Assembly (NCBI RefSeq): GCF_037392515.1 | Contig: NC_090283.1 | Coordinates: 12,034,501 to 12,098,500 of the forward strand | DNA: 64,000 bases | Origin: Haliotis asinina | Taxonomy: Eukaryota > Mollusca > Gastropoda > Lepetellida > Haliotidae | Direction of reading: 5' to 3' | Part shown: positions 17,502 through 63,590 of the stretch, piece after piece | Position numbering within the stretch: the stretch's first letter is position 1 | Layout of the letters: each line of letters begins with the position of its first letter | Made by a program: the position numbers and the translations under genes | Notes under the pieces: generated by a model | The model's input: the letters and a program-made list of their open reading frames with translations, nothing else | What the model was told of the DNA's origin: nothing | Databases searched by the model: none

Positions 17502-17590
17502 CGTACGTGAAGATCCGGGGTAGATCTGTCTCCACCAGCCCATGGTTGTCGTAAGCGGGCTGGCGGGATCGGGATTCTGTTGGCAAGACC
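17502..17590 (+). repeat. SINE-B 5' fragment
   Basis: 'gtgaagatccggggtagat' and 'ccagcccatggttgtcgtaa' followed by 'ggcgggatcggg', a truncated head of SINE-B just after the SPRY gene's stop. Confidence 0.6.
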
Positions 17591-17729
17591 TGCTAGATTC
17601 TTGTTTATATATAGTTACATCTTGTATTATCTTGTGTCCGCACTATTTGTATACATACCTGTTGTGCTAACTGTTTGATAATTGACACTGAGATCTCAAC
17701 AGTGCTGCAATAATATGATTGGGAAAATA

Positions 17730-25400: not shown

Positions 25401-28400
25401 GAATCGAACCCGGGTCGGCGTGACGAGCGAACGCTTTGACCACTAGTCTTCTCCAAAGCGTCTTCTTTATTTATATACAGGTAGTACCAAATTTGTTGAG
25501 TGTGCGGATGTTAACGTAATGCTGTCAGAAATGAGCTTAAACTCCACATCCGTCAGATATGTACCGAGAACACGAGGCAGGTTCGCTCTGCGGTACATAG
25601 TGGAGTTGGGGCTTTGGGGTTAGTGGTTAAAGCGGACCCGGGTTCGAGTCGGCACAAGTGCGGAAGCCCATTTCTGGTGTTCCCCGCCGTGATATTACCG
25701 GAGTATTGCTAAAAGCGGCGTAAAACTAAACTCACTCAGTAAAGTGTTTGAACTAAATTCACTCAATCATAAGGTGGAACTAGGGTGCAAATCTGGCGAG
25801 TGATTAAAGTGTCTATCCGTCCATCCATCCATCTATTCCTTCATCCATCATTATTTATCTATTTAAAGTTGATGATGAAATTGCATAGTTATGTTAATTC
25901 CAGAATGAAGCGGAAAATACCCTGACGTCAAGGATTATCTTGTTCCAGGTGCGTTCCATGGTATTATTATAAAATAGAGGACAAATGTGTCTTGATACCT
26001 ATTTGGATATGTGGAGCAATTTCATTTCCCGTGCTTAACCAAACATATCACCAAATATGTCTTTCTTGTCTTTCTTGATTGTTGCATTTGCTCTGATTAA
26101 TAATTATAAATCATACATTTTCATTATAGTAGAATTGCATTGTAATAGAATTAGTTGCATGACACGATAAACTACGATTCCGTGTTCGTCTTGACCCCAT
26201 TTTGGAATCTGTTTAGAAAAGTCGTTTTATCTTTTACTAAAACAGATATTTTGCAGCCTGTCCATATATACCTATTTTGTTTAAGCAATGGGTCGACATT
26301 CGACTGAAATGGAATGCATCAGATTATGGGGGTGTGACCAATGTCAAGCTTCCGTCAATGCGATTGTGGCTGCCAGATATTGTGCCTTTCAACGCGTAAG
26401 TTACTAAATAGGAAGGGCCTTTGTGTGGGGTAGTCTAATTGTTAAAGCGTTCACTCGTCACGCCAAATACACTATGTGAAGTCCAATTCTGGTGTCCCCG
26501 TGATAATGCCGGAGTATGGCTAAAAAGGGGGAAAACCATACTCAATCATTACACTGTGTAAGGATCAGTAGTGTAACAGATGAACGAAAACAAAGTATCG
26601 CGTCCGGTTTGCTGAGAAAAAATCGGGGACACACGAGGTACATTTTGACCTGCATTCAATAATCACACAAGATTACAAGCGATAGAAAAGCAGTTGCAAA
26701 ACAAAGGAATATACGATAGGGATAAGCCCGTGAACCGTTAATCAAGGTAAGATTTGTTTTACAGTCAAACAATGATTTGGTAACTTTCAGATTTGACATG
26801 TCCAGTTGATCCAAGGGAAATAAACCCACTTCGTACTTTTCCGATTGTGATAGTTTCATGTACTTGTATTACAGAGATCCCACGCCGGTTTCAGATCCCG
26901 TATATGAAGTAACGGTTGACGTTTCCAATGACGGCACTGTACGATGGGGGCCATTGATGGTCGTGTCATCAAAATGTCCTCTTGATGTCACCAACTTTCC
27001 CTTCGATACCCAGTCCTGCACAATCGTATTTGGTTCTTGGTTACACTCACGAGAGCAGATGGACATGAAATTCTTCACGCCAGGAGCTAAAGAGATGGAT
27101 GTTAATTATTCGGAAAACTTTGGGGGTATGCCGATTGCTGAACATCCATATTGGACCATCAAAGACAATAGGGTGAAGGCTAAACTCTCAGAGGTGAAGT
27201 ATGGGACTTATGAGTTTTCTATACTAAGCGTTACAGTGGAGGCGGAGAGGAGACCTTCCTTCTTCAAGAACCTGGCCATAGGACCTGGGGCTCTTCTTGG
27301 GTTCCTGGTTCCCGTGTTGTTTCTACTACCTGCAAGATCCAGAGAAAAGAACACTTTTGGTAAGAGTGAGTTAGTGAGTGGGTGCTTGAAGGGGTGAGTG
27401 GATTGGTGGTTGAATGAGTGGATGAGTGAGTGAGTGAGTGAGGGAGTGGGAATTGTGGATGAGTGAGTGGATGGATGAGTGAGTGAGTAAATGGGTGAAC
27501 GAGCGCATGGCCATGGGTAAGTGAGTGAGTGAGTGTAAATTGTGGACCAGTTAATGAATGAGTGAGTGAGTGAGTATGCATTTACGCTGTTTTTGAAAAA
27601 TATTACAGTATCATGGAGGGGGACAATGGGCTTCACATATTGTACACATTTGAGGAATCGAACCCGTTTCTTCAGAATGAGGAGCGGGAGCTTTAACCAT
27701 TAGACTATCCCATCGTCCCCGTTTGATAAGAATTTTAGGTGTTTGGGTGAATTGCGTGTTCTATTAGACCTCACAAATCTATAACACGGATATATGCGAA
27801 TAAAAAAGTAGGGGATATTTGCGGGCACACCACTGGCCAGTGCCAATACATATGAAAAAAGTAATATTTATCCATTCAGATGAAGTATTTCCAAAGGAAT
27901 GGTATACATTGTCACATTTTCACTTCATCGTCATTTCTCTTCATCATCTGTTTCCTTCTTCGCCTCATGGTGTCATCATTTGCATGTCATCAATCTTGTA
28001 AATGCAATGTCCCTTACTATATTTTAATGGGATATATAAACGGGAGGTGGGGAGGTAGAAACACGTGTTTTCAAAAACTGAAGTGTGTCTTTGGCATTGT
28101 TTCTATTCTCCGTGAAATCATTAGACTGTGTATGGGTAGACGCAGTGAATGGGGACTAGGCAGGAATGAAATGCGGAACCGTCAGGACACTCAGTAACTG
28201 TAATAACAATAATAGTTAAATGCACTTTATGGAGATTTTGTTTGGTGTTTAACACAGTTTATCACACGTCAAGCATGGGATGCTGAACACCTGGTGGTGC
28301 AGTAGCTTAGTGTTTAAAGTGTTGTGTCGTCACGCCGAAGACCCGGAGTTCGATTCTCCACATGGGTTCAATATCTGAATCCCATTTCTGGTGTTCCTCG

Positions 28401-30230
28401 ATGTTATATAACTGGAATCTTGCTAAAAGTGGCCTTAAAACTGAACTCACTCGCCCCTGAAGATCAATTCTAACCGGGATTTTCCTAGATGTAAATGTGC
28501 CAGAGAGGTCTGTACATTGTCACACGGGCCATGACACTTGTTTTTGTGGTTGGGGTACACGGGATCCGAAACACCGGATTGTTCACAAAATGTCCTGTTG
28601 TCCGCAAGACATCGAGTTGCAGATGTTTTGCTTTACTCCTCCACTTTTGTTTATATTAGAGCAATACTTTCCCACAGGTATGCTGATAATCGTCGGACTC
28701 GTTCTTCTCATCTCAGTCCTAACTCAGGCTGTTCCCTTCAACCACAGCAGCACGCCACGTGTAGGTGAGTATCTGTCCTAACTCAGGCTGTTCCCTTCAA
28801 CCACAGCAGCACGCCACGTGTAGGTGAGTATCTGTCCTAACTCAGGCTGTTCCCTTCAACCACAGCAGAACGCCACGTGTAGGTGAGTATCTGTCCTAAC
28901 TCAGGCTGTTCCCTTCAACCACAGCAGAACGCCACGTGTAGGTGAGTATCTGTCCTAACTCAGGCTGTTCCCTTCAACCACAGCAGCCCGCCACGTGTAG
29001 GTGAGTATCTGTCCTAACTCAGGCTGTTCCCTTCAACCACAGCAGCACGCCACGTGTAGGTGAGTACCTGTCCTAACCCAGGCCATTCCCTTCAACCACA
29101 GGAACACGCCACGTCTATGTGAGTATCGGTCCTGGCCGTGGCTGTTCCCTTCAACCAAAGCAGCACACCACGTCTATGTGAGTATCGGTCCTGGCCGTGG
29201 CTGTTCCCTTCATCCACAGCATTACGCTTTGGGTGAGTATCGGTCCTATCTGTGGCCATTCCTCTCAACCACAGCAGCACACCAGGGGGTCACGTTGTAC
29301 CAGATTGATTATAATGGTACAGGCATGCAGTATTGTTCTACCTTGCAGGTCACTTCTACTTGATCACCCTGCTGCTGACCTGCTGCAGCATAGCTATCTC
29401 TGTACTGGTCAACAACATCAGCTACAGGGGAGCCAGGCGACGACCTCTGCCCAAGTGGATTCACCAGGTGAGTGAGTGAGTGATGGTGTATGAGTAAGTG
29501 AGTGAGTTAATGAGCGAGTATTTTGGTGTATGATGTTGAGAGTGAGTGAGTGAGTGAGTGAGTTTATAGGTTGTGACTAAGCTAAATAATCAGCGGGTTA
29601 GTGAGCAAGTTTATGGGTGGCTGGCCGAGTTGGTGAACGGGTGGATGCGTGATACTTGTGAATGAGTGAGTTAGTTTGACGCTGCTTTAAACAACAAATC
29701 AGGACATGTCAGTTAGTGAAGGAGGAAGTAAACGGCCATACAACTTGCTCACCTGTTGATAATATTGTATATAAAATGTGTCAAGTTCCAAATATTAAAG
29801 AAAAACAACACTGCTTTAATTATCCCGCAACATATCAAATGCTAAAGCTTCTTGGATTTAACAAACCTTGTGAGTTCCGAGTTTTTTTCGACAGGCTTGT
29901 TTAAGCCGAAATGGTCTGCGGAGAATCTTGTGCATAGACAAGTACTCGCCCGTGGACAATTTGTTCGCGGAGACATTGCGGGAGACAGAGGACTTATCTA
30001 CGCATGCGCAACCGGAAGCTGCAGCAGGGAGGGAAATGGATACACTACAGACGCGGGAAATGAGGGATGTTACCAGATATCTTAAATATATTTGTGGCAA
30101 ACTGTCGGCAGACGACTCGTACAAGAACGTAAACCAGGACTGGGAGGAACTTGCACGTGTCGTCGACCGCGTCCTGTTCGTTATCTTCTTCATTATGTAC
30201 GTGCTCACCGCAGTGTCGTTGCTGACGTAG
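19365..30230 (+). CDS. Nicotinic acetylcholine receptor-like Cys-loop channel subunit, complete (8 exons, 471 residues)
   Basis: Exons 19365-19446, 24869-25020, 25904-25948, 26286-26395, 26875-27359, 28678-28764, 29349-29467 and 29895-30230 (TAG 30228-30230) join with consistent phases; the 45-bp third and 110-bp fourth exons are the sizes typical of nicotinic receptor genes. The product would be one subunit of a pentameric ligand-gated channel in the plasma membrane. Visible: signal peptide (1-28); WNASDYGG (102-109); loop A WLPDIVPFNA (121-130); Cys-loop C164-C178 (CPLDVTNFPFDTQSC); loop B FGSW (182-185); M1 about 264-282; M2 about 289-308; M3 about 322-341; M4 about 448-470. Odd points: loop C (about 236-254) has no vicinal cysteine pair; loop A has Phe128 where Tyr is usual; M2 has Leu at 6', Val at 9' and Gln at 20', while Glu -1' and Lys 0' are kept. 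The M3-M4 loop is short (about 105 residues). Probably a non-alpha or orphan subunit; ligand unknown. Confidence 0.92.
19795..19925 (+). repeat. tRNA-like SINE fragment of a third type
   Basis: 'ggtcggtggttcgattccc' is a clear B box, followed by 'gtgtaaggcagttgagggta', unlike SINE-A or SINE-B downstream sequence. The 5' A-box half is weak, so a SINE head is more likely than a tRNA gene. Confidence 0.45.
20316..22117 (-). other. Region bounded by a perfect 24-bp direct repeat; nature unknown
   Basis: The same 24 bases (cagaagggttccagggtcag plus actg) occur at 20316-20339 and 22094-22117. Read on the minus strand, a TATATAA box (22147-22141) lies about 30 bases before the right copy, a GTAAGC donor-like site follows it (near 22080), and AATAAA (20345-20340) lies directly before the left copy. 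The interior is AT-rich with no coding capacity. Confidence 0.4.
21828..21925. repeat. Short minisatellite, about 24-bp unit
   Basis: 'cttacaaagtgacggcatac' and close variants are repeated four times; one or two units carry a small deletion. Confidence 0.75.
22730..24380 (+). mobile_element. LINE reverse transcriptase remnant (CR1/L2-Jockey-like), 5'-truncated
   Basis: In channel intron 1. Broken frames on the plus strand give, in family order: RLKSDYFNQLIVSQLQNSKA (endonuclease-RT linker); LDKYQLAYKSGFITETAVST and LLELTEVFDTVDH (RT blocks 1-3); VPQGSVLDPVLFTLYSKPVS (block 4); FYGDDTQL (catalytic block, 23682-23705, with Gly in place of the usual Ala of YADD); VSAWINANLLKLNSDKTEAL (thumb start); and near the end TRLKTFGGRSFAYKA. 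Several frame breaks and stops are present and the endonuclease is missing, so the copy is dead. Clade assignment is from motif resemblance only. Confidence 0.8.
24449..24612. repeat. 51-bp tandem repeat, three units
   Basis: 'catattgaa(a/c)acaa' recurs at 24463, 24514 and 24565 with 'catggggtactggggatctt' in each unit. The unit is 17 codons long, so an open frame passes through on both strands by chance. Confidence 0.85.
24869..26395 (+). CDS. Channel exons 2-4: N-terminal ligand-binding region
   Basis: Exon 24869-25020 encodes the N-terminal helix and first strand (VDVTMYPMLLSINNI). Exon 25904-25948 (NEAENTLTSRIILFQ) and exon 26286-26395 (QWVDIRLKWNASDYGG to VPFN) give the loop D tryptophan (W95) and loop A. 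Asn103 (NAS) is a likely N-glycosylation site. Confidence 0.9.
25155..25460. repeat. Head-to-head SINE-A 3' ends plus a SINE-A head
   Basis: A plus-oriented 3' piece (gctgtcccccgccgtgatg, attgctaaagag) is followed at once by its inverse (tttttagcaataatcc, cacggtgggggacaccagga), with flanking arms 'ttcagtattccgttcata' / 'tggatggaatactgaa', forming an imperfect palindrome at 25173-25348. A minus-oriented head (ggggaatcgaacccgggtc) ends the block. Confidence 0.6.
25610..25745 (+). repeat. SINE-A copy
   Basis: 'ggttagtggttaaagcgg', 'acccgggttcgagtcgg' (B box), 'ggaagcccatttctggtgtt' and 'gctaaaagcggcgtaaaact', in channel intron 2. Confidence 0.85.
26421..26551 (+). repeat. SINE-A copy lacking the B-box block
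   Basis: 'gttaaagcgttcactcgtca' is followed by 'aaatacactatgtgaagtcc', so about 25 bases with the B box are missing; the tail is 'accatactcaatc'. In channel intron 4. Confidence 0.75.
26875..27359 (+). CDS. Channel exon 5: Cys-loop, loops B and C, M1
   Basis: A 485-bp exon with C-x13-C Cys-loop, loop B tryptophan (W185), a short loop C (KYGTYEFSILSVTVEAERR) without cysteines, and M1 (PGALLGFLVPVLFLLP). It ends in SREKNTFG at the start of M2. The donor GTAAGA is followed at once by a (GTGA)n-type repeat. Confidence 0.92.
27364..27570. repeat. (GTGA)n/(GTGG)n-type microsatellite starting at a splice donor
   Basis: Imperfect GAGT/GGAT tetranucleotide array that begins within six bases of the exon 5 donor (27360). 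On the minus strand it gives meaningless Thr-His-Ser-Leu reading frames. Confidence 0.85.
27571..27716 (-). repeat. SINE-A copy
   Basis: 'gcatttacgctgtttttg', 'aatgggcttcacatattgta', 'gaggaatcgaacccg' and 'ctttaaccattagactatcc'. The preceding microsatellite is probably its expanded tail. Confidence 0.75.
27797..28025. mobile_element. MITE-like element, AGTAGGGGA family (copy 1)
   Basis: Left end 'aaaaaagtaggggatatt' is the inverse of the right end (gcaatgtcccttactata). The interior 'ccactggccagtgccaatac' and 'atgaagtatttcc' is shared with 61770-62001. In channel intron 5. Confidence 0.6.
28290..28453 (+). repeat. SINE-A copy
   Basis: Full-length: 'gtcgtcacgccgaagacccg', 'gagttcgattctccacatgg', 'cccatttctggtgttcctcg', 'ttgctaaaagtggccttaaa', tail 'aactcactcg'. 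Confidence 0.85.
28678..28764 (+). CDS. Channel exon 6: M2 pore helix
   Basis: 87 bases encode MLIIVGLVLLISVLTQAVPF, then NHSSTPRV, joining FG before and GHFYLITLLLT after. The exon's 3' half and its donor are the founding unit of the 59-bp minisatellite that follows. Using any later donor would read into a stop after VGEYLS. Confidence 0.88.
28706..29290 (+). repeat. 59-bp minisatellite copying the M2 exon's splice donor
   Basis: GTGAGTA recurs at 28765, 28824, 28883, 28942, 29001, 29060, 29119, 29178 and 29233: seven exact 59-bp steps, then one of 55. Each unit holds 'ctaactcaggctgttccc', 'ttcaaccacag' and, in most units, 'cacgccacgtgtag' just before the donor, the exonic bases coding TQAVPFN..TPRV. 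The first unit is the real exon end; later units drift. Confidence 0.93.
29349..29467 (+). CDS. Channel exon 7: M3
   Basis: 119 bases encode GHFYLITLLLTCCSIAISVL, then VNNISYRGARRRPLPKWIHQ, aligning with the M3 segment and the '(M/L)P.W(V/I)' motif that follows it in nicotinic subunits. Donor GTGAGT runs directly into GTGAGTGAGTGAT. Confidence 0.9.
29468..29690. repeat. (GTGA)n-type microsatellite starting at the exon 7 donor
   Basis: The donor GTGAGT is itself the first unit of a broken GAGT array that continues to about 29690, ending in 'gtttgacgctgctttaaac', a relic of a SINE-A 3' end. Confidence 0.75.
29895..30230 (+). CDS. Channel exon 8: cytoplasmic loop, M4 and stop
   Basis: 336 bases in phase 0. 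The loop is short and charged (LRETEDLSTH, REMDTLQTREMRDVTRYLKY). DWEELARVVDRVLFVIFFIM is the pre-M4 helix and M4, equivalent to 'W..VA.V.DR..F' of nicotinic subunits. The protein ends AVSLLT. Confidence 0.92.
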   Translation, partial: ACLSRNGLRRILCIDKYSPVDNLFAETLRETEDLSTHAQPEAAAGREMDTLQTREMRDVTRYLKYICGKLSADDSYKNVNQDWEELARVVDRVLFVIFFIMYVLTAVSLLT

Positions 30231-37387: not shown

Positions 37388-38978
37388 TTACTTTTTGTCT
37401 GCCTTGAACTTAGCCTCCCACTCCTTCTGTCTTTGTTTCTCCTTCTCTCGTTCCTTGGTCGCTTCCTGCACATACAAGATACATAGTTTTCAAACTTTAC
37501 ACCAAACCTATGACAAACAGAATGACTACCTAACTTACAATATCTGCACGATTTGAAAACTGTACTTCTGAACCTGTTTGTATTCCGTATTGAATATTAT
37601 TGATAGTGAGTGAGTGAGTGAGTGAGTGAGTTTAGTTTTATGCCGCTTTCAACAATATTCCAGCAATATCACAGTGGGCGACATCAGAAACAGGCTACAC
37701 ACATTATTCCCATGTGAAGAATTGAATCTGAGTCTTTGGCATCACGAACAAAACTTTTAACCACAAGGCACCCTTACTGATACAGAGCTCACGACAACAC
37801 TCTGTGGAAGTTACCAGTTCAGTTAACATTCACTTTAGTGAATGAATCTAGATCCCTTTCTGAATTCAATTCATTATTCGTCGCCAGTAGAATAAAATAT
37901 TTACAACTATTTTAAGGGAGTGTTTTTACCTTGCTGTTAATTTGTTGTTTATCTTACTGTGCTACACAAAATGGAATAAATCAAGGGCAAGCAGTACAAT
38001 AACTCATTTTGCCAAGGTTCCTGTAATAAAGTGATAAATGTCCTCTATGAGTTTCACTTTTTGCTTTACAGAAAATATTTAGCTTCAACTTCAAGGCACT
38101 GTTTCACACCATGTTTCTTTGAAAATCGATAATGCATTCCTCTCAGTAATACTATCAGCCCTCAGGGAGGCTTAGTAACCATTTAATTTATTCCCCCTGA
38201 AATTACATATTTAGGCTGCAATATTAAATTTAAAATTTTGAATGAATGAAAGAAAGCTGCATTGAACTGACTGGTGTCCTCTTCCAGCCGAACATTATTT
38301 CAAGCAGAAATCATTGAGTCATACCCCTAGGAACACTCTTCACGAACATCCGCCTTTGGAGACAGAACTGAGTCTTAGATAAAACATACGTGTAGATTTT
38401 GATTGAAATCAAAATCAAACACCAACAACACTGCCTGGGACAGTTTTTGATGTACGGAGCAAATTGTTTAAGATTCCATATATGCCAAGTGTTCTCTGTT
38501 TGGAAAATACATCCTTGTCATATTGATGTGATGTCATGAACAACGTTACATTTTTTTCCTGTGAATATTTTTCGTTCTATATGCGGCAGAGGCGGGAAGA
38601 AAGCCCATATTTGAAAGTAGATTTGGGTGTATTTTCCTTAATTCGTTGACTTTGATAATAAACAGAGTATCATATTTGTTACGATGTCATACTATGTCTA
38701 CGACACTCATGACTAAACATCGGTATAACCCTTGCTTTTGCGAAATACCAACATTTAGGCACTCGTGTTATAAACACAGTATGACACGGGCACTCTGTTT
38801 TACGAATACGCCATGGTCCACATGATATGTAGCAGGAACAAACCTCCTCCTTCATCTTGTTGACGAGGTAGTCCACCTGGTCCATCAACGTCTCCAGCTT
38901 CTTCTCGTTACTGTCTTCTTCGTGGCGCAGGCTCATTGCACGGTTCAACGGGAAGAAGTCAAAATTGTTCTGCTCCAA
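37388..38978 (-). CDS. ITPR-like: Calcium-release channel: C-terminal coiled-coil exons and stop
   Basis: Exon 38978-38844 has NNFDFFPLNRAMSLRHEEDS then a helix KKLETLMDQVDYLVNKMKEE. Exon 37465-37388 adds a highly charged helix (EATKEREKEKQRQKEWEAKF) and ends KADKK with TAA at 37390-37388. The coiled coil holds the tetramer together in IP3 receptors; the tail here is shorter. Confidence 0.92.
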
Positions 38979-41900
38979 CTGAAACAACACAGCATAGACT
39001 AGATCGTTAAGTCTCATGACAAGTGGGAATGAGAAAATCTAACAAGACTGTCATGTTTAATGTCAAATGACAATACAAACCAGTGCTAGATCATTGCATC
39101 TCCTGTTACAATAACAATAAGACATACGTACACCAGATCATCAAGTCTTATGAATACAGGTAAAAACTTAACATCGTGTCTCATATCATGTGACAATAAG
39201 ACATATCAACTGTAGATTATCATCTCTCATGTCATGTGACAATAAGACATATCCACTAGATCATCAAGTCTTATGAATACAATTAACAAGATAACACTAA
39301 TGTCTGATACAAACATGAAAACAAAACAACTCAAATTCAAGTAAAACATGTGAGAACAACAAAGTCCAAATGCTAGTCCATCGCCTCCCTTGCTGTTGAT
39401 AGGGGGCGGTTGGGTTAAAGTGTCTGCTCGTCATGCCGAAGTCCTGGGTTTAATTACCCACATGGGTACAACATGTGAAACCCGTTCCTGGTGTCCCCTG
39501 CCATGATATTGCTGGAATACTGCTAAAGGTGGCAAAAAAACATACTCACTCACTTCTACTGACAACAGTGAGTGAATTTAGTTTGTGCCATGAATTCTGC
39601 TGCCATAGAGAACTAGTGCTGGGACTACACATAACTCTGAACTGAACTACCATTGAACAATGCAGAAAAGTAATTACTAAAATAAACAAATGCAAAATGG
39701 GTAATATATAAGATTATTATGTAAGCATATATTACTGGCTACTCTTTTTGTCTATAGGCAGTCACATGACTATCGAGTCAAAGTGTACTGACGCCAATCC
39801 AGGTCCGACCAAAAGTCAGATTGACTACAAGTATCATAGACGTCATTCCATCGTTTACATGTCACATTATTGTTTACATAAAGTTTTCGGTTTGTAGGGA
39901 AAATCAAATGACTTTTCTTGATTAAATGGACATATTTTGATTTGTAGAAGCTTTTTTTGGTAATTACATAATAAAACAATTATAGACTGCTAAAGTTGGT
40001 CAAACCTTGTTTTCATGGGCCCGTTTAAAGTAATATTGCTTTTTGTGGGGCCATAAAACAGTTACTGACCCCATCACCAGTCTATAATTGTATAATGTGA
40101 AAGGAAAGCACTGCTCTGATATGTAGTGATGTCATCACCTACCAAATTTGCAATGTAAAGCTCCAGGGCGGTGTAATCATTGGGCCTTGTCTCATCCAGA
40201 TGGATGAAGAAAAAGAGGTATGCCCACTGATTGTGTTCCATCTTTACATGCTTCTCGAAACCCTGAAACGACATTTTGAAATATACATATGAAACATACA
40301 TGTAGCCTGCAAAGGTCACACCACAATTTTTTGAATACGTCTTCCACTGTAATACAGTCTTGGATGAGAACATACTTGATAATTTTTTCAAATAATGATC
40401 TTAGTCCAAAAGTACACAATATTGTCTGTCGACGTAAGAATCGGCATGTCGACCTGACAGCTATTGTGTGTTGACAGTTTCATAACTATGCAAAATCTGT
40501 GATTACACAATGGCATCTAGACAATAGTCAAATGTAACATACATCATATTTGGGATTGCACTTTCTTTGTGAAGTACAAATTCTCGAACTTTTGTGATTG
40601 AGTCCCATATGGGAACCTTACCGGCACCGCTTGAGCCAGGCTTCTAATCGCCAGCACACAAAATCATCTGAGCATGTTAGACAGCAAACTTTGTGTGCTG
40701 GCCGTTAGGTGTCTGACTCTATGGGTGTGGGACTCAACCACAAAAGTACTAGAATTTGTATTTCACTAAGAAAGTGTAATCCCAAATATGACACATGTAA
40801 CACAAAATCTACACAGGGATACTTTCTGGAGTATGACCATAGTTCTTCTGCACAATGCAATTTTATCACAGTTGTGTACGGCACTCACCCCTGCTTGACG
40901 CTCAAAGTCGTAGCTTTCCCTGCTGCAGATGAAACAGTTCGACTTCATGTCATTGTCGATTTGCCACTGGAAAGAATACAAAGTTGTTCAAAGTCCTATG
41001 ATGGAATAACATTTCATATGAAAAGTCCTGATTAATTATTACCACTAAAAGCAATATATTTCCCTAATATATGAATCCTAATATATATCGTATGAATTAT
41101 TAATTATCATGGAATAGTTAAGCATATGACTAGTACAAATGAGCATAGAGTGGAACTGTTTGCTTGAAGCTGTTGATCTTGACATGCTAGATACTTCATT
41201 CACAGATTTATAAGAACAATTCCCAGATTGAAATTGGAAATTTCTTAATAATGTTCTCACTGTTTAGCCAAATGTTATGGCTAGAACAGATGACTTGAAC
41301 TATGGTTACCTTATTGTCTCTAAGCTCAGAGAAGGTGTCCACAATGATACCGAAGATGATGTTGAGGCCAATGGTGGTGATGAGGATGAAGAAGACTGTG
41401 TCAAACACGGTCACACCCAGATGAAAATGGTAATCTCTTCCTGCCAAGGAAGGTTCCATCACCTAGTCAAACAAGAATGAGTAAGTTTACCTCCAGTGTC
41501 AAAATTAGCAGCATCATTTGAGAAACCATCCTGGGTTATCCTGGGGTTAAAAGTGTTTCTTTTTTATACATACCCTGGGCCATTTAACTATATGTTTGTT
41601 TAGAGTCTACTTAAATGACACAATGCTTGGTTCAAATGACTCATTACTAGATCAAATCACACAAAGTCTGATGGAAATAACACAATGCTGGATCTAAGTA
41701 CTGTAAATAATGAGATTAATGCATCACACATTTAATGCAAATACAGGGTCCAGTCTAAAGTGTGTCAAGAAAATAATGCAAGCTCAGGTGATGATAAAAT
41801 GTGACACCCTGAATATTTGATGCTGCTCATTTACTTTTCACACTTGTCATTTGCCATTTGAGTAACACAATATTTAATTCAAATGACACTTTGCTTGCTA

Positions 41901-44900
41901 CAAATGACAGAATGCTATCAAACGACAATGTCTTTTCAATATGGAAAAAAATGGCATGACCAGTAATATACATTTCCAAGATGTCTTCAGTATAACTGGG
42001 AAGTCTTGTAACAAGAAAGCCTGACGCTACTTAAAACATTTTTCCAAGTCTCACTCAGATGGTTCATATCAGTGCAAAACATGATCAGCAGATTCTAATA
42101 TAATGGCTATAATACACCAACATTTCACCTTTTGTAGAATCCATTTTACAATGAACAGGGGGAATAAGTGGGGTGGAGTGGGGTGGAGTGGGGTGGAAGT
42201 GGGTTGGAAGTGGGGTGGAGTGGGGTGGAGTGGAGTGGGGTGGAAGTGGGGTGGAGTGGAAGTGGGGTGGAGTGGGGTGGAAGTGGGGTGGAGTGGGGTG
42301 TCACTCAAACTGTACATGCCTCTCCATAAAAATCATCATCTATGCTCCCTAGCCATGAATTATGCTAAATTATGAACGTTCTGTTAGGGTCATGACTTGT
42401 GTAGATGCATGTACACATCCACATCTGAGCATGACAACCTCCATGACTTACGTTGTACACCCCTTCAATGAGGCCATGGTGAATCATGGTGGTGAGGCAC
42501 TCGTAGATGGTGCGGCAGTGACGTCCCTCCGCTGCAGTGAGGACGTTTCTGTAGAAAGCGAAGGAGATGAGGGAGAAGATGTACATGATGGCGATCCCGA
42601 GCAGTGCTACCAGAACCAGAGACCAACCTGTAGTAAGACAATAACAAGGGGAGGTGAAATCATCGGGCATTCTGGGTTGTTATGATAGCATACGTAAATT
42701 TAGAGCTTACATGCAATGCAAAACACAACTTTGCAGATTCTTACACCTTTCAGTATGGACTTACAATAACAATTTGTCTGAAATGCAAATTCAATTTAAA
42801 AAGTTGAAAAATAACCCTTTGAAAAAAATCAAGTGAAACTGAGTTCAGATGATTCCCTTAAAAAAAAAACAGCTGGGGTGAAAAATGGTTTCAACAGCTG
42901 CACTCTGCAGAAAAGCGCACAATAGCTGCACATGCAGTGAATTGGTTTGCACAGCTAGAACCAGGATGCCTATACATACACGAAGAGCCCTGAAAGTATC
43001 ATCAGCTGTGACTCAGCCAATGAAAGTCTTTGCTATACTTAATTTCATATCTACCCACTCCGACTGAGTTTGGTATCCTGGGTGCCTCTTTCTCGAGAGT
43101 AGTATTGATTTGTAAGTGCATGCATACAGTTTTGTTTATTTGTTTTTTCATAATCTGCAATGCATATTATATGTCATGAATTAATGATATGTGTGTTTTA
43201 ATTAAGTTTATTTTGTTGGTTACATCTAAACTTAAGCTACTGCAACAAGTCATCATCAGCATTCAGTATGACAGGGTGCAACATGCACTGTCTGATGTAA
43301 CTGTTCACAGTGGAAAGTATTTGCAATGAGTACTTCGTCCAGATGGTTCAAAGCACAACAAATGAACAGTACTTAGGGAAACAAAGACGCACTTCTACAG
43401 TGATATATACATTCACGTGTGTGTGCTTGTGTGTCCATGTGTTTTTGCCGTGGGTGTGGTGCTGCTTGACGTAACATTGAGTGAATGATTGTAAATTTAG
43501 TTGTATGCTGCTTTCAGCAATATTCAGTATCAAGGCGGGCACACCAGAAATGGGCTCCACACATGGTACCCATGTGGGGAATCACACCCAGATCTTCAGT
43601 GTGATAAGCAAACACTTTAACTACTTGAATGTGCCACCACGCCTTGACATAACACACTCAGAAAGGACAGCTCTTCAAGGCATTTAGCAATACAAAACAA
43701 TATTACAAAGAGGAACACCAAAAATGAGCTGGATCTTCAGCCTTGACTCAACAAGACATGACTGTAAAACAAGTATCACATGTAGACCATCTGTAAAGTA
43801 AGTATAATGCATGCCAACCATTGCGTGTGACGGCCTGGATGACTCGCTTCAGCAGCTGGTTGAGCATCGCCATGTGGAGGAGATGCACGGAGAAGAAGTA
43901 GCCATACAGGGCGGTACCGCTCACAGAGAAGCCAAGGAAACACTGCAACAGAGGACTCATATGGAAATACTGACACTGGAGTAGTGACACTGGAATAGTG
44001 ACACTGGAATAGTGACACTAAAATACACATACTAAAACACTGATACTAACAAACTGCAATACTGACAATATAAATAATAGTAATAAACTACTGACACGAC
44101 AATATGTAACACATGTTATATTTGGGATTACACTTTCTTAGTAAAGTACAAATTCTAGTACTAGGACCCACACACTCCTAATTGCCACTGACAAAGTCAG
44201 CCGCCTAATCCGCTCATTAACCACGCTTTCCATGAAATGAAATTTGGACAACTGGTAGTCTAGACTGTAGGCTTTGTGTACCCCTCTGATTAGTGTTAAT
44301 TGGCATGGCTCGCCCGACCGAAATGGCATTGTTTAATCATACTGACACTAAAACAAAATTAAACTGGAACATGGACACGATAATATTTATCAATGTCTCT
44401 TAAATGTAAGGCCAGTGCTGGAATTGATTCTATAATACTTTGTTACCAGAATACTTATAGCAAAGTGCACAGACAGCAGTATGATTACAATATGTAACTT
44501 ATATATAATTAAATACCGATTATGAAATTCTAGACTATTGGCATCATATACAAATGTGAAGGACACATACTCATAATCTCATTAGACTGGTATAATGCTA
44601 CAAAGTTGATACTTAAATACAGGTATACCAAATGTTAATTTGTAGACTCAAAAGTTAGATGACAACTGTGGATAAATACTCCACAAAAAACATGTTTAAA
44701 AGTGTAAAAGACATATTTTCTGCTGTGAAAAGAAAAATACAACTGAATACAAATACAAGCTAAATAAAATCCCTAAACAACAAAAGGCATAAGATGACAT
44801 TCTGTTCTTTGTGCAAAGTTTCAAGAAAGAACACCACTTACTTTTTTTAATTTGATCTGTACAATATATAATGGAGAATAATAAGGTCAAAGTTCACACA

Positions 44901-47900
44901 CTTACAATGTAGTAGAAAGTGAGAAACCCGAAAAACTTCACTTCAAGATGGCCGCCCTTCTTCTGTTCCTCATCCTCATTTTCTTCCTTTGCATGGCTCC
45001 GTTTGGGTGTGATCCGCCTAAAAGCAGAATGTTTCTCACATGTGACACACTGATAACATTCAACATCATGGCAAAGCTTTGTTTTCCACTTTGACCCAAC
45101 CAAGGCTCTCGGCCTACTTTTCATTCAAATGTTCTTGATTTCCCCTACTCTACCAAACACAGCCTTACCTGCATGTGTCCACGACTACAACATCCAACAT
45201 CACCAAAACCTAGCCTACAAGAGTCTACCACAAACCTATCCATGAAACCTTGCCTACAAGTGACTACCACCACGCGGCCCTCCCTTTAACTAACCTAGAC
45301 ATTGTTTGTCCCTACTGGCACATTCCCGTTTTCTATCTCATCCACCATTATTCCCTTCAGCTAGGCTGCTTCCCATTTCTCTAACTCCATCTAACTGTTG
45401 CTCTACTAGCTCTACTCTCACACATGACCTTTCTCACAAATACATATTTCCTCATTAAAAACCACTCTTCACAAACACCTCACTTCACAAACACCTCTCT
45501 TCACTAACCTCTCTCTTCACAAACAACTCTCTCTTCACAAACACCTCTCTTCACAAACGACTCTCTTCACAAACAACTCTCTCTTCACAAACAACTCTCT
45601 CTTCACAAACACCTCTCTTCACAAACACCTCTCTTCACAAACGGCTCTCTTCACAAACAACTCTCTCTTCACAAACACCTCTCTTCACAAACAACTCTCT
45701 CTTCACAAACACCTCTCTTCACAAACGACTCTCTTCACAAACAACTCTCTCTTCACAAACATCTCTTTCTCCACTAACCTCTTTCTTCACAAACAATTCT
45801 TTCTTCACTAACCTCTTTCTTCACAACCAGCTCCCTTCACAAACAACTCTCTCTTCACAAACACCTCTCTTCACAAACAACTCTCTTCACAAACACCTCT
45901 CTTCACAAACACCTCTCTTCACAACCCACAGTCCTGTCATACATAATGAACAAGCTACGTCTCATTTGTGAACCTACTTCCACAGCCTCTTGAAGTCCTT
46001 GATCCCAGGGAAGGTGGGGTGGTTGGAGAGGAAGTAACTGATGAGGATCATCAAGGAGAGGATGTTGTGGATGCCGCCCAGGATGAAGGTCATGTAGTAG
46101 GCCCCAGGCCATTTGTCCGTTTGGGGGACAGCACTGGAAGCGAATCAGTCAGTTAATAAACAGACATTCTGTGGGGACACACTTGTATCCACATTAAAAT
46201 GAACATGTCCGCAGGCTCGCAGTAGAGCAAGAGATGGTATTGGCACGAGGTGATATTGGTAGAACCTCGAGTCTGTCTCACAGTCCCTCAACCACATTAT
46301 CTTCTCTTTGACTCAGTCTCATCTGTAACACAGATGCTTTTTCTTTCTTTCTCATATTCCTACTGGACACTTGTATGTGTCAATGTTTAAAAGAAGAACA
46401 TTAGAACCTGGCAGTCCTTGAACCACATTATCTTATCTTTAGCTCAGGTCTATTTGTAATGCAGATGTTTCCATTTTTATCTCCCATCTTAATGAGCTCC
46501 ATTTCAAAGCAAATGAAATTATTGGTTTCTTACAAAATTATGTATTTACTCAGTGACTTTCATCCTACTTCATGAATGAGGTGACAGTTGTTTAAATTTC
46601 TCTGTAATATTTTAGGGTCAATGTATTTGTAAAATGGCATTAAAAATGTTACATTTGATTGTCTGTTTGAAAACAATCCCATGAAAATAAGGTTTTAATT
46701 ACATTACCAAAAACATAATCATAAATGTGTCTCTTTCTTGCAATTTCAGACATTCAATTCAACTAGGAAATTTAGTTGATCAGGGTCCCTAAACACAAAG
46801 CTAAAGTAGCATGTCTAAGTCCAAACTGTCATAGCCTTAAGACTGTGTTGTGCAACTAGGCCTGGCTCCACTTACACAAAGCAGGTTTAGTTCAGGACTT
46901 TGGTAAGCCGATATATAGACACAGTTACACATAAAGGAACAAAGCTGAGGAGGTTTTCATCAAACTTACGAACCAACTGAAGATATACTTTAGGGTAGGG
47001 TGGGTGAGTTTAGTTTTACTCTGCACTCAGCAATATTCCAGCTATATGGCAGCGGTCTGTAAATAATCAAGTCTGGACCAGACAATCCAGTGATCAACAA
47101 CACGCCCAGCGATCTGCGCAATTGGGAACCGATGACATGTGTCAACCAAGTCAGCAAGCCTGACCACCCGATCCCGTTAGGCGCCTCTTATGACAAGCAG
47201 TCGCCTTTTATAGCAAGCATGGGTTGCTGAAGGCCTATTCTACCCCGGGACCTTTACGTGTCAGATATACTTTAGATATGATTTCAATATTTGGTATTTA
47301 CTGTTGAAATGATCTGGGGTGCGAAAGGTAGCTGACACTTTGCCTTGCATGCACAATACACGTGCTCTACATGTGCTACCCGTGTCCTCCACATGCGCTG
47401 CCCACACTACCTGTCTGACAGCAATCCATTGTAGCCTAATGGATAAAACTGCAAAGGGTTGCGGGCTTGAAACCAGGCATCGACAATAAGTATTGGAAGT
47501 TTTTATCAATGTGATAGCAAGTTATATCAATCTTAAAAACTAGTAGTAATTCAAAGTCAAGGGCTATTTCTTGGGAAATCCCTGGGAGGAGGGCAATTCT
47601 TTTGAAAATCCATGGGAGGGGGTCAGATTTGATGTGCAAGAAATGATTGTCTATGGACGAAACTGCTCGTAGAGGTTTACTTGGTAAAAGGAGAACCCGG
47701 TGAGACAAATGCATGACGTTACTGGAGTGGGTGAGTGAGTTTAGTTTTACGCCGCACTCAGCAATATTCTAGCTATATGTCTGTAAATAATTGAGTCTGG
47801 ACCAGACAATCAAGTGATCAACAGCATGAGCATCGATCTGCGCAATTGGGAACCGATGGCATCAACCAAGTCCGTGATCCTGACCTTCCAATCCCGTTAG

Positions 47901-50900
47901 TCGCCTCTTACGACAAGCATAGTGGCCTTTTATGGCAAGCATGGATTGAAGAAGGTCTATTCTACCCCGGGACCTTCACCATTTTACATCACTGGAGGTT
48001 TATAAAGGACTGTAGTGCTAGGCTCCTGGGGAACATCACAGAATTAATATCTTTCATTGTAAAAAACAGACATAAAAACTGAGCAGTAGTAGTGCTAGGC
48101 TCCTGGGGAACATCACAGAATTAATATCTTTCATTGTAAAAAACAGACATAAAAACTGAGCAGTTACGCAGAGTACAGGAATCAAACTGCGACAGGTAGA
48201 GTTTTTTGGGCAACCATGGTAAAAGTGACACTTTTCACTTACTCTGCAGCATTGGCAGGGTTCTCGTGCCATGTGATCATGACAAGAAAGGCAATGGCGA
48301 CAGTTACAATCATCACTAGTATGTTCACCCACGGCCTGCAAAGAAATAACAGTCAAAATATGAAGGGACTTTCAGGTAAGGACACAATAAAACATACATA
48401 CATGCATGCAGTACCAGAAATATGCCATCAGACTTTGGATTGGCTGTTTGGCATGAGAGTGCAGGTGAAAAAATATGTGATGAGTCAGCAAATATCAGAC
48501 TGACCCAGTGGGAAGAATTCATGTATATATAATCTGCTGACTTGGCACATTCAATATTGAGCTAATGGCAAGTATTCATGTATATCTGCTGACTTAGCAG
48601 TTTCAGTACCTAAACAATGGCAGGTAATCATGTATATCTCCTGCAATCAACAGTTTCAGTCTTTAGAAAATGGCAAGAATATACTGACCAGCTCTGGACA
48701 AAGAAACGGGCCAGTGGGTTTGCATGAACCTTCCGCTGGTACTTGATGTCTGCGATAATGTCTTGAGACCAATCCATGAAGTCTCGCAGCTTGTTGCTAG
48801 GCGATGACCTGTCCACATCATACTTGAACTTCTCCTTGATTTCCTCACGGAGTACATTCTATACACGGAAAAATAATGTGTAAAACAAATGTTCACATGG
48901 AATAATCAGGACAACATAGCAAATGGCTGGGCCAGACAATCCAGTGATCAACGCCATTTGGATATGATGACCTGTGTGTACCAAGCTGACCACTTGATCC
49001 TGTTAGCCACCTCTTACGAAAAGCGTGCGTTGCTGAAGGAAAATTCTCACTAGGATCTTCAGGGGTATTATCAAATACTGGAGAGGTATTATCAATCACT
49101 GAACAGGAAGCAGCATAACTAGCAGACATGAAATATAGATCAGTAGTTCAGCTGTTGTCTGTCTATACACTTCAATGACAAAGGGCAGATCTGAGATATG
49201 ATCAGCATATGGCATGCTTCAAATACAATATGTCACTATCTTTGGCCTTCATCTTGTTTTGATCTGAAGATGACATTTTCAGATAAGGAGAACTGCCTGA
49301 CCTTTACACTTGGATTCACTAATTGTTTGTCATAACTCTGAAAGTTGCCCATCTGAGATATGATCAAATACAATATGTCACTATCTTTGGCTTTCATCTT
49401 GTTTTGATCTGAAGTTGACATTTTCAGATAAGGAGAACTGCCTGACCTTTACACTTGGATTCACTAATTGTTTGTCATAACTCTGAAAGTTGCCCGTCTG
49501 AGATATGATCAAATACAATATGTCACTATCTTTGGCTTTCATCTTGTTTTGATCTGAAGTTGACATTTTCAGATAAGGAGAACTGCCTGACCTTTACATT
49601 TGGATTCACTAATTGTTTGTCATAACTCTGAAAGTTGCCTCTTACCTTGTCTTTGACATGGAAGTAGATTTTCTGGAGGATGTCCTCCTTCAGGACCTCA
49701 ATGGAAAGAGTGTTGTTATAGAAGTACGTCCATGCAATCTCGCTCTCTGGTGTCTTGATCAGCACTGCAACCAGAAACACAGACATGTTGAGACAGATGC
49801 AATGATAAGCACGTAGACGATGACAACAAAGAATGTGTTTCAGGCATTAAGATATTCATCATGTGAGAGACACAAACAGGGAAATGGCAGACAAGGGGTT
49901 GACTTACTGGGTTTCGTGATCTCCTCGTGAAGATCCATCATACGACACAGGATGTGGTAGTATGCAAAGCCGACGTCACTCACCAGGTTGGCAAGCTGAG
50001 CTGTTTCTGTTGTCTTCTAGATAACAATGATGATAAAATAGTGATAGTTATGATTACAACCAAATTTCTCTCTTCTGCATTTTGTTTGGATCTGTAAAAC
50101 ACGATGATGATGATGATGATGATGATGATGGATACTTGTAGCAAAGCTTTTTTATTTGAAAAAATCTCTGCATATTCCTCCCACGAAACAATATCAAACA
50201 ATGACTCAGTTGACAATGTTAGCCTCCATACAGAGGTCAGTGACACTTGTTAAGTCCATATAAGGTAATATTTGTGAAAGATGAACATTTATCATCTGAA
50301 ATTATGATGTATTTCATGATAGAACATGATAGTGAACATGATAGTGAACATGATAGTGAACATGATAGTGAACATGCAATACACTTTTGACCATATTCCA
50401 GCAATACACATTGGTGGACATAAAAAATGGACTTCATACCATGTAACCATGTAAGAAATCAAACCCATGTCTTCAGTGACATAGGTGAACACTTGAACAA
50501 ACTCTCCCACCCTTCATTGTAATGCAAACATCAGCGCTATATCTCACCTTTTAACAGATCTGAACTTATGAAGTTAGTTGTAATCAAACAGTAGCTGCAT
50601 GCACTAGTAACACAAATAGTCTGAGGAGGTCAGGTTTGATGTACAAAAATGATCGTCTATTTCAGACTTCATTTGACTAATAATTTGCATAAAATATATG
50701 AATTTCTATGGTATTTTTTTATCAAACATTCAAATATGAATGATCATAGTAACTATTACCTAATATTATGATTTTCTAGCATATTTTAAAACACATTCGC
50801 AAACAAGCAAACAGATACATGTATCTCGGTAATCATCTCTCAAACAGACTATTTATGGTACAACCTATATACACTGATTTCACATGCTTTGTAAACTCCA

Positions 50901-53900
50901 CACAACACGACAAATAGGAAAGGCACAGCAGAGAGTATCAGATTACAAGGAGGACTGGACCACTTTTGCATGTACAGCAAATGCATGACTGGACTAATGC
51001 TTAGTCTCTATATATATAAGTTTGATAAACAAAGCCATTTTAAATGAAAAGGAGCCCCAGAGATACCAGTGATTCTGACCCTGAACCTGGGGAAATCTAG
51101 ACTTGCTTCATCTAAGGCTTTAGCACTGCCGAGAAGGCAGTAGGCCAAATAGTGTGGTTCAGGGACTGTGAGACAGACTAATGCATGACATACATTGATT
51201 CAACATTGATCAGTATATTGTGACTTCATGCAGTTATCAAAACAGTCACACAGTAGTATACAACTTCCCTGACCATATTTTCTGTAATCTTCTTTTAGAA
51301 AAGTTGTTTATGAAATACCTACAATAGTGCAAAGAAATAGAAAAAAAAAATCTCAGTAGGAATTTATTATTAACATGAAGAAAGATTGAACATTTGTAAG
51401 AATTTTAAGTTACAAAGAAGCTCATGTTTGCAGTATTTTCAGAACAAAGTTTTAGGATGTCTTTTAGCAGAATTTAGTTGTTATGCATGGCCAAGATATG
51501 TTATGGATTAATCTTCCTTTCAATTCATAAAATTTTAAGAGTTAAAAAGACGTTTAATCCATAACAGACCTTGGCGAAAGTTTTAGGAGTTAGCTGAGAT
51601 CAAGACCAATTCTGTCAGTCCATCATTCCTCCTTGTAATACATGATGACTCTATCAATAGAAAAGGTGTCTCAGATTTTGTAAGGATTAAGTACAGCAAT
51701 GACATGCAGGCTAAGTGGAGGCTAAGTGCAAGATAAGTGTACCAAAGGAGTATGCCAAACAGCATGTTGTGATGGCACAGTAGTTACAGGGAAGGTCATG
51801 CATCGTTGAAATATAAAGTCAATGAGTGAGTTCAGCAATATTCCAGCAATATCATGGCGGGGGACACCAGAGATGGGCTTCACATATTGTACCAATGACA
51901 GGATCGAACCTGAGGCTAATGGCATGATGCATGAACGCTCTAACCACTGGGTACCCTACAGCCCTTTTGACACATTAATATACTGAGACTCAGAGCATTT
52001 CAGGATTGTGATTTGAAAAAATGATTTTATGGTGCTTTTACTGAGAAAAATCTTTGATCAGTGAGTGAGTGAGTTGGGCTTTATTGGCTTGTAGCAATAT
52101 TCCAGCAATATCATGCTTGGGGAACAGCAGAAATGGGCTTCACACATTGTACTCATGTGGGTATCATACCCGGGCCTTCAGCTACCCCATCTCCCCTTAC
52201 TAGAAATGACTGGATCTAGTTTTGATGAGATGATGACAATCAGTAGAGGCTGACAATTCTCCAACAAAACAGACAACTTCATGGCATACACAAAGATGAT
52301 GCTGACAAAGACAACATGAATGCTACAGGATGAATACTTCAGACGAGGACAGCGATTACAGGATGTAACACACAAACAAACATATATCTAGACACACGCC
52401 ATTTTCATTTGGAACACTGGGATTAAACTGACATGTTCTTGTATCAACATGTGGTGGGGACAAAACATACTTTCTACATCTCCTTGACAGTTCCAATTTG
52501 TTGGAAAGTTGAAACACTGAAGATGGTTCAGACAAGTAACCCTTAATTCTCCATGCCACTGAAGACTACCACTGGATTTTCACTTTCCCCTAACACTATC
52601 AGTTGTCTTTGGCTAACAGACAAGCATGAATTTCAAGGGCTGTGGTATGACAAAAATATTATGAAGTATTTGACATTTAAGGTTTTCTTTAAGATAATAA
52701 CCCCAAATCATACTGACATTTTCATTATTATTTTGTCGTCAATCAGATTATTGACACTGGAATTGTTTTCTGTAAACATGATATCCAGAGTTCCTAATGA
52801 AAGTGGCAACAATACACAGCTAAATGAATTAATATCTGTTTTTACCTCTCTGACATGCATGGCAGAAGTATCCTACATGATGGAAAAACATATACACAAC
52901 GATCAATGATACAGTCAAGACAAGATAATGTTTCCTTCACAACTAACAATCCTGATGATGAAGTCATGACGTGTACACTTAGACTTACCACCACAAGTTC
53001 TAAATCCTACCAGCAACATGTATGGCCGACAAAAGGATATGTTAGTACAATTCACAAAAATACCACAAAATAGTCAACAGAATTAAAAAGTGACTCATTT
53101 CCAACTATTTCTGTGCCACGGCAAGAGTATTAAAATTAAAATTTCAGTCAATGTTTTTTAACAGTAAACTTTTATTTCAGTACTTACAACCTACACCAGA
53201 AGATGAAACAAAAGATAAATAGGATAAATACAACAGAATAAATAGTTAATAGAAACTATATTATTACATATATTCCTGTATAATACAATGTAATAAGCTT
53301 TCTGTAAGAACATTTTTATATATTTCATGTGAAAAGAGTACCGTATGCATGTGATTAAAAAAAAGTCTTAATTACTTCAATAACATTTAATTAATCATTA
53401 GATTGAGAAACCTCGAGCTCACCTTGATGTCGCCGTATGCTACCACCATGGCTTGTACAATGGAATCTCTGTCAAGGTACTCCATCACCTCCTGGAGAAG
53501 ACGATCACATGATTATTTTAAAATAGGTTCAGTTAGAATACAGTGCACCAGCTTATGTGAAAGGAAAGACTAAGTGAAAAAAGTGAAATTTACCAAAAAG
53601 ACTACATCATCAATTATATGGATAGGGTGCTGACAGACAAATGTATGAGTGAGTGAGTGACTCTGGCTCTATGCCACTTTAAGCAATTTTCCAGCAATAC
53701 CAAAGCAGAAAACATCAGGAACGGCTAAATGACAAGAATTCTAATGAGTAAGAATCTGGGATTAGAAGCCATGATTATTAGATCCTGGAATGGTGATGGG
53801 AGGCAACTCTGCATACTACATGAAGAGGAACCCTTCAGCATTTCCGGAATCATATATTCAGTGCATGTGGCAGCTATTTGCTATGCCTCTATAGTTCTGT

Positions 53901-62399: not shown

Positions 62400-63590
62400 C
62401 AGATTCTCCAAAGGCAGAAGAGTAGGAACACTAGCATTCTCTGTTCCCCTCTAATCCCCATGGGAGGACCAGAAGGAACACTAGCATTCTCTATTCACCT
62501 CTAATCCCCATGGGAGGACCAGAAGGAACACTAGCATTCTCTATTCCCCTCTAATTCCAGTGAGAGGACCAGAAGGAATACTAGCATTCTCTGTTCCCCT
62601 CTAATTCCCGTGGGAGGACCAGAAGGAACACTAGCATTCTCTGTTCCCCTCTAATTCCAGTGAGAGGACCAGAAGGAACACTAGCATTCTCTGTTCCCCT
62701 ATAATTCCTGTAGGAGGACCAGAAGGAACACTAGCATTCTCTATTCCCCTCTAACCCATGGGGAGGCCAAAAGGAACACTAACATTCTCTATTTCCTTCT
62801 AATCACCAATTGAAGATCAAAAGGAACTCTAGCATTCTCTGTTCCCCTATAATCCCCATGGGAAGACCAAAAGGAACACTAGCATTCTCTATTCCCCTCT
62901 AACCCATGGGGAGACCAAAAGGAACACTAACATTCTCTATTCCCTTCTAATCACCAAATGAAGACCAAAAGGAACTCTAGCATTCTCTAGTCCCCTCTAA
63001 TCCCCATGGGGAGACTAAAAGGAACACTAGCATTCTCTATTCCCCATGGGAAGACCAGAAGGAACACTAGAATTCTCTATTCCCTTCTAATCCCCGTGGG
63101 AGGACCAGAAGGAACACTAGCATTCTCTATTCCCCTCTAACCCATGGGGAGACCAAAAGGAACACTAGCATTCTCTATTCCCTTCTAATCACCAAATGAA
63201 GACCAAAAGGAACTCTAGCATTCTCTAGTCCCCTCTAATCCCCATGGGGAGACCAAAAGGAACACTAGCATTCTCTATTCCCCTATAATCCCCATGGGAA
63301 GACCAGAAGGAACACTAGCATTCTCTATTCCCCTCTAACCCATGGGGAGACCAAAAGGAACACTAACATTCTCTATTCCCTTCTAATCACCAAGTGAAAA
63401 CCAAAAGGAACATTAGCATTCTCTATTCCCCTCTAATCCCCATGGGAAGACCAGAAGGAGAACAGGACTCATTTCTTCCCATCAAATCCCCAGTGGAAAA
63501 CTAGGAAGAGAACCGAAATCCTGTCTTCCCCTCAAACGCCCATGGGAAGACCAGAAGAAGAACAGGAGTCGTCTATTCCACTCAAATCCC
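62400..63590. repeat. 50-bp minisatellite, about 23 units
   Basis: 'ggaacactagcattctctgt' recurs every 50 bases from 62425 and 62475 on, each unit with 'tcccctctaatccccatggg'. A higher-order pattern is visible: variants with 'aacccatggggagacc' and 'tcaccaaatgaagaccaaaa' alternate in blocks of about 240-250 bases around 62750-63400. Confidence 0.92.

Follow-up and report, generated by a model that had tools for sequence, protein, structure and literature searches.

A gene of the IP3R/RyR family in Haliotis asinina with a filter region that lacks GGGxGD

A stretch of 64,000 nucleotides of Haliotis asinina DNA (assembly GCF_037392515.1, contig NC_090283.1, positions 12,034,501 to 12,098,500; here called the window) was analysed to follow up an earlier note, in which an IP3R-like channel with a non-canonical selectivity filter had been read from the sequence at 41310-42627. 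All positions given below are those of the window. The minus strand carries a gene homologous to inositol 1,4,5-trisphosphate receptors (IP3R, ITPR) and ryanodine receptors (RyR). GGGxGD is absent from its pore region, and the residues of the S6 gate and of the zinc-binding linker are present.

The channel gene and its pore exons

The gene model comprises 16 minus-strand exons from 60727 to 38844, with 702 codons and no stop. It was extended by homology and splice phase, and the exon ends were picked by us with simple splice-site scores so as to fit the phases. The model represents the C-terminal part of the gene, and 5′ coding sequence continues past the modelled portion. An open stretch is seen at 62281-62045, upstream of the modelled exons (60727). 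N-terminal MIR and RIH domains would fall past the end of the window at 64000, and the IP3-binding core with its basic residues, as well as any SPRY and RyR repeats, would likewise fall outside it. The exons and the intron that divides the filter region are given here with the basis of each assignment.

60434-60727, minus strand: exon E2, RIH_assoc (CDNQHKGLQNYLR ... LVEYTS); Pfam RIH_assoc, splice sites and phase, with residues 99-120 of the model in E3
59932-60033, minus strand: exon E3; phases 0-0, ITPR2 alignment
59509-59604, minus strand: exon E4; phases 0-0, acceptor score 8.5
53423-53491, minus strand: exon E5; phases 0-0, donor score 7.1
49908-50016, minus strand: exon E6; phases 0-1
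49646-49764, minus strand: exon E7; phases 1-0
48689-48858, minus strand: exon E8, juxtamembrane region; phases 0-2, ITPR2 alignment before its membrane domain
48243-48335, minus strand: exon E9, presumed S1; hydrophobic by eye, phases fit
45978-46133, minus strand: exon E10, presumed S2; hydrophobic by eye, phases fit
44906-45017, minus strand: exon E11, presumed start of S3; alignment, acceptor score -0.1
43819-43942, minus strand: exon E12, S3-S4 and S4-S5 linker (HLLHMAM ... VTRNG); weak donor GCAATG/gttggc, score -1.8
42452-42627, minus strand: exon E13, S5, pore helix and first half of the filter (HHGLIEGVYN); phmmer, phase
41463-42451: intron of 989 bases splitting the filter; microexon scan
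41310-41462, minus strand: exon E14, remainder of the filter loop (VMEPSLAGRD), then S6 with its gate (NIIFGIIVDTF); phmmer, phase
40889-40966, minus strand: exon E15, first half of the zinc linker (CFIC); phmmer, phase
40143-40262, minus strand: exon E16, second half of the zinc linker (H..H) and junctional domain; phmmer, phase
38844-38978, minus strand: exon E17, IP3R-type tail (FFPLNRAMSL); alignment, 3′ boundary uncertain, donor score 0.0

The coordinates of the pore exon pair (42627-42452 and 41462-41310) and its in-phase join, as read in the earlier note, proved exact. The first exon ends with TACAAC/gtaagt and the second, which starts with GTGATG, is preceded by ttgactag, with phase 0 on both sides of the junction. 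The translation across the junction (slash) is HHGLIEGVYN/VMEPSLAG, in longer form ...TTMIHHGLIEGVYN/VMEPSLAG, and over a wider span ...YECLTTMIHHGLIEGVYN/VMEPSLAGRDYHFHLGVTVFDTVFFILITTIGLNIIFGIIVDTFSELRDNK. The cDNA reading that the exon model predicts over 42452/41462 is LIEGVYNVMEPS, or also HHGLIEGVYNVMEPS.

When the 177-residue stretch from pore to linker was compared with PDB sequences by phmmer, IP3R2, IP3R3 and RyR1 were matched with E-values of 1.9e-29, 2e-29 and 3.3e-20, and the locus is thus a genuine pore of the IP3R/RyR family. The matches at E up to 1 comprised 52 distinct sequences, the weakest (0.036) being a polycystin-2. For the whole model the E-value was 2.4e-61 with ITPR2, in two colinear blocks, and 1e-36 with RyR2. 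The matches of the pore stretch and of the whole model rule out chance similarity to these receptors. The alignment with ITPR2 is loose across S1-S3, where S1 and S2 were placed by eye. In Pfam searches of the model up to an E-value of 1, RIH_assoc (81.6 bits, cut-off 28.5, model residues 26-120) and Ion_trans (40.8 bits) were matched and no other family. RIH_assoc thus stands before the membrane domain, and the Ion_trans pore, S6 and a C2H2-like zinc linker (CxxC ... H ... H) follow.

The exons have the composition of coding sequence, with guanine-plus-cytosine fractions of 0.50, 0.29 and 0.65 at codon positions 1, 2 and 3, compared with 0.37 in the introns. Decay of the gene is therefore unlikely. 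A decaying gene or pseudogene, its filter starting to drift, could account for the weak donor of E12 and for the luminal turret after the filter, where 1 of 10 residues is identical to ITPR2. We give it only a slight chance, however, since the 702 stop-free codons run over 16 exons, the third-position values of the two pore exons are 0.76 and 0.63, and S6, the zinc linker and the tail are conserved. Intron pieces with the lengths of the 16 exons would all be open with a product of about 10^-11 (best of three frames, the exon ends being author-picked). The open frame and the composition thus agree with the earlier statement that the gene does not look decayed.

Sequence and register of the filter region

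Where mammalian IP3 receptors read RSGGGVGD or GLRNGGGVGD, the abalone protein reads GLIEGVYNVM, and the place of GGGxGD is occupied by IEGVYNVM. Two alignment registers are available. In the gapped one, chosen by phmmer, G--VYN stands against GGGVGD, with a two-residue gap followed by a two-residue insertion; identity to ITPR2 in the filter stretch is then 4 of 10 aligned residues, a proportion no lower than the 6 of 17 in the pore helix. Because pore helix and S6 are as far apart as in IP3R2 and IP3R3, an ungapped register is also possible. Here R is replaced by I and S/N by E, the first G is kept, and the following G, G, V, G and D become V, Y, N, V and M. Under BLOSUM62, each of the two gaps costing 13, the gapped alignment reached up to 24 and the ungapped 20 (IP3R3), the scores against ITPR2 being 17 and 14. 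The two registers fit about equally. The loss of the GGGxGD filter, as previously claimed, holds in both. The accompanying list of changes (two glycines missing, the last Gly changed to Tyr and the Asp to Asn) stands in phmmer's register, but shifts in the ungapped one.

The filter is itself interrupted by the 989-base intron, and an overlooked exon or an alternative splice site might be thought to bring back the canonical sequence. This would make the altered filter an artefact of annotation, which we regard as scarcely credible. The upstream exon, with a good donor (gtaagt, 4.1), already encodes LIEGVYN, which follows directly on the pore helix, so that an extra exon could add residues but not replace these. 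An in-frame stop lies immediately 5′ of the downstream acceptor. Among 36 in-phase microexon candidates in the intron, each no longer than 240 bases, none contains GG or GD, and the missed small exon that the earlier note had proposed to look for finds no support in the sequence. The patterns GG[GA][VIL]G[DENSG] and HG[LVI]xxGGG gave zero matches in the six frames of the window. When the IP3R3 pore was used as a tblastn query on the window, matches at E < 0.1 were obtained only within this gene; an AGGIG match at 17541-17636 on the plus strand (E 0.50) is at chance level, distant and on the other strand. On the microexon scan, the six-frame motif scan and tblastn, a missed microexon and a second pore exon were both rejected.

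Outside the filter, the claim of an intact S6 gate and zinc linker is borne out. S6 has 16 of 33 residues identical to ITPR2. N2510, F2513, G2514, D2518 and R2524 (numbered as in human IP3R3) are all kept; in PMC8930994 they are assigned to the pore-facing surface, the gate, the hinge and a salt bridge. I2517 is Val. The partner Asp (D2570 in rat IP3R1) is kept, and Arg2544 at the end of the pore helix, which pairs with it in the rat protein (PMC8149723), is Ile. In the alignment with ITPR2, the zinc-site CxxC (CFIC) and both His are retained. In the same alignment, CENH and TEYCQ, which we take to hold the activating calcium ligands, read CDNQ and VEYTS, the second Glu being retained (exons 60434-60727 and 40143-40262). 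Alignment with the IP3Rs of the PDB places Asn at Thr2581, which supplies a main-chain group at the activating calcium site (PMC8930994).

Subfamily and proposed working of the pore

The protein combines features of both receptor types. With vertebrate ITPR1-3 it shares RIH_assoc, an S6 gate with Phe, the zinc linker and a FFPxxRAMSL tail, and its identity to ITPR2 over the stretch between pore helix and tail is 65 residues out of 181 aligned. It differs from them in the replaced GGGVGD, in Ile for Arg2544 and in CDNQ for CENH. The long S5-to-pore loop on the luminal side, a mark of IP3R-A, is absent; 3 residues lie here against 53 in ITPR2 (2424-2476), and the ITPR2 matches are split for this reason. 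RyR matches, in contrast, extend across S5, pore and linker without interruption (query residues 5-172 of 177; in the whole model, up to about 679 from a start at 436 or beyond). S4 here reads HLLxxAM, as it does in RyR. The S3-S5 segment scored 34.9 bits with ITPR2 and 34.2 bits with RyR3. Differences from RyR are the gate Phe, where RyR has Gln (PMC8930994), the IP3R-like tail and a filter that is not GGGIGD.

Since an IP3R-like gate and tail are combined with a RyR-like short loop between S5 and pore, the protein most likely belongs to the IP3R-B subfamily. The label IP3R-like was right as to the family but too broad, as the mosaic would point to IP3R-B. IP3R-B is reportedly sister to RyR, in work attributed to Alzayady in 2015. 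Compared by description only, the mosaic seen here suits a protein intermediate between IP3R-A and RyR, as IP3R-B would be expected to be. IP3RB is described as a third type in animals in addition to these two, represented in the leech Helobdella by two genes; it is placed in the bilaterian ancestor, said to be lost in vertebrates and absent from fly and nematode, and called understudied, its physiology mostly undetermined (PMC7992859). Limpet sequences are included in the tree of that paper. For the EF-hand pair that RyR has between RIH_assoc and the membrane domain, Pfam gave no match in the model, and an exon missed in the 3.4-kb or 6-kb introns would escape this search. Viral contigs scanned with the pore exon gave 7 pattern matches and prokaryote genome contigs scanned with the S6 exon gave 267, none of which was confirmed by tblastn; these null results are expected, as the collections are viral and prokaryotic.

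GGG(V/I)GD is stated to be conserved in metazoan channels (PMC3213138), and the schistosome and kinetoplastid homologues examined elsewhere keep GGGXGD (PMC3194816). Departures are described in protists, here compared by description only: the filter of oomycete ITPRs is GGGLG(G/S) (PMC7399828), and Paramecium CRC-VI has practically no filter similarity (PMC3213138). Because authors still file protist members without GGGxGD in the IP3R/RyR superfamily, the abalone protein would be kept there too, though not as a canonical animal member. In the excerpts consulted from the open-licence literature, no animal IP3R or RyR without GGGxGD was met. This or a similar filter might nevertheless be shared by all lophotrochozoan IP3R-B, making it a hitherto undescribed trait of the family and no peculiarity of a single gene, a proposition to which we assign roughly even odds and which is compatible with a conducting as well as with a non-conducting pore. 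The understudied state of IP3RB (PMC7992859) and the tolerance of such change in the wider family, as in ciliate CRC-VI, favour it, while the quoted statements on metazoan channels and on schistosome and kinetoplastid homologues speak against it.

The reading that we rank first, with a probability of about 0.5, is that the pore conducts cations with altered permeation, the canonical filter having been replaced. The predicted assembly is a cation pore of four subunits, set in the membrane of the endoplasmic reticulum and opened in the manner of IP3 receptors when the zinc-bearing junctional domain moves against the S6 gate, with (I)EGVYNVM standing in for the GGGVGD filter. Under the ungapped register, the glycine of the constriction, G2546 (rat IP3R1 numbering), would be kept, the adjacent pore-lining Ser2545 would be Glu and the luminal Asp2551 would be Met. 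The ring of four carboxylates would then leave the luminal mouth and lie where the pore is narrowest. In the mammalian channel, the side chains of Asp2551 and Ser2545 together with G2546 define the geometry of the filter (PMC8149723). A conducting pore is ranked first because the residues of the gate and of the cytosolic pore are kept and because the ungapped register would provide a carboxylate at S2545. Altered selectivity or conductance and a dominant-negative subunit, both inferred in the earlier note, stand as candidates: mutagenesis of mammalian receptors speaks rather for lost conduction, the retained gate residues for a conducting pore.

Several points weigh against this reading. Single filter mutations stop calcium flux in mammalian receptors, and a wholesale change could therefore mean a dead pore. 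G2546A abolishes flux, the D2551A channel is dead and the D2551E channel is more selective for monovalent ions (PMC8149723), and IP3R2 G2498S and IP3R1 G2506R are non-functional if expressed alone (PMC7939385). Phmmer and the slightly higher scores favour the gapped register. For Ion_trans, the stretch from pore to linker scored 27.7 bits, compared with 46.2 for the equivalent stretch of IP3R3. Since the presumed residues of the activating calcium site differ, calcium activation and gating may be unlike those of IP3R. Among the splice sites of the model, the lowest scores belong to the donors of E12 (43819, -1.8) and E17 (38844, 0.0) and to the acceptor of E11 (-0.1).

A non-conducting regulatory subunit is second to a pore of altered permeation and a close rival to it, possible but less probable. 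Such a subunit would assemble alone or with IP3R-A or RyR and act as a brake, a scaffold or a ligand sensor. Precedent for a non-conducting subunit is given by MCUb of the mitochondrial uniporter. The IP3R-B of Capsaspora, again in the 2015 work attributed to Alzayady, is said to have bound no IP3 and released no calcium, which we count in favour of a non-conducting role. The lethality of single substitutions for mammalian channel function argues in the same direction. Activity at an intermediate level persists in tetramers in which two subunits carry G2498S (PMC7939385), and a filter-adjacent ITPR1 mutation is argued, mainly by prediction, to be dominant-negative (PMC4863663). On the other hand, the S6 gate and the residues of the cytosolic pore mouth are kept, which would be needless in a dead pore, and an evolved filter is not equal to a point mutant.

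A more specific form of the conducting pore, rather doubtful in our estimate, would have the filter rebuilt around the relocated carboxylate ring as an E-G-x-x-x-V-M loop, making a calcium-selective or calcium-blocked release channel without a counterpart among the IP3R and RyR studied so far. Filter loops of the EGWxxVM type occur in voltage-gated calcium channels and in NALCN channels. The likeness to such loops would be one of motif, and the lower Ion_trans score lends it no support. A 48-residue query of the pore loop gave no match in the PDB at E up to 10, not even to IP3R or RyR, and is hence uninformative.

A well-kept animal gene without GGGxGD is a natural experiment. If the pore works, it would show how the weak calcium selectivity of the IP3R/RyR family is set; if the pore is dead, an animal lineage would be keeping a large pseudo-channel for regulation. 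The filter change thus gives a concrete, testable question on the little-studied IP3R-B.

Neighbouring genes and repeats

The neighbouring features of the window are as follows.

26810-30230, plus strand: nicotinic-receptor-like gene, tail to tail with the channel gene
28716-29284: 59-bp unit repeated 9.7 times with 90 percent match, within the nicotinic-receptor-like gene
62424-63459: tandem array of 50/148-bp units, in or upstream of the channel gene
60903-61646: tandem array of 99-bp units, in or upstream of the channel gene
49219-49639: tandem array of 145-bp units, in or upstream of the channel gene
45457-45924: tandem array of 16-50-bp units, in or upstream of the channel gene
42167-42300: array of CCACTCCACC type, inside the intron that splits the filter
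22727-24222, plus strand: open stretches resembling the remains of a reverse-transcriptase gene, by eye
about 47000-47260 and 47730-47980: dispersed repeats ending like GCTGAGTGCGGCGTAAAACTAAACTCACTC

In the nicotinic-receptor-like gene, Neur_chan_LBD (66.7 bits, 26810-27397) and Neur_chan_memb (32.1 bits, about 30040-30230) were matched, and the stretch between these two parts gave no Pfam match. The 59-bp unit resembles the end of an M3 exon with a GTGAGT donor, and the splice donor may thus be present in many copies. One piece of the reverse-transcriptase-like stretch (23263-23568) had no match in Pfam, and ARAGORN, run with bacterial settings, found no tRNA within the window. Translated text similar to that of the dispersed repeats of GCTGAGTGCGGCGTAAAACTAAACTCACTC type, which we take to be of a kind present in abalone DNA, is also seen at 8369-8656.

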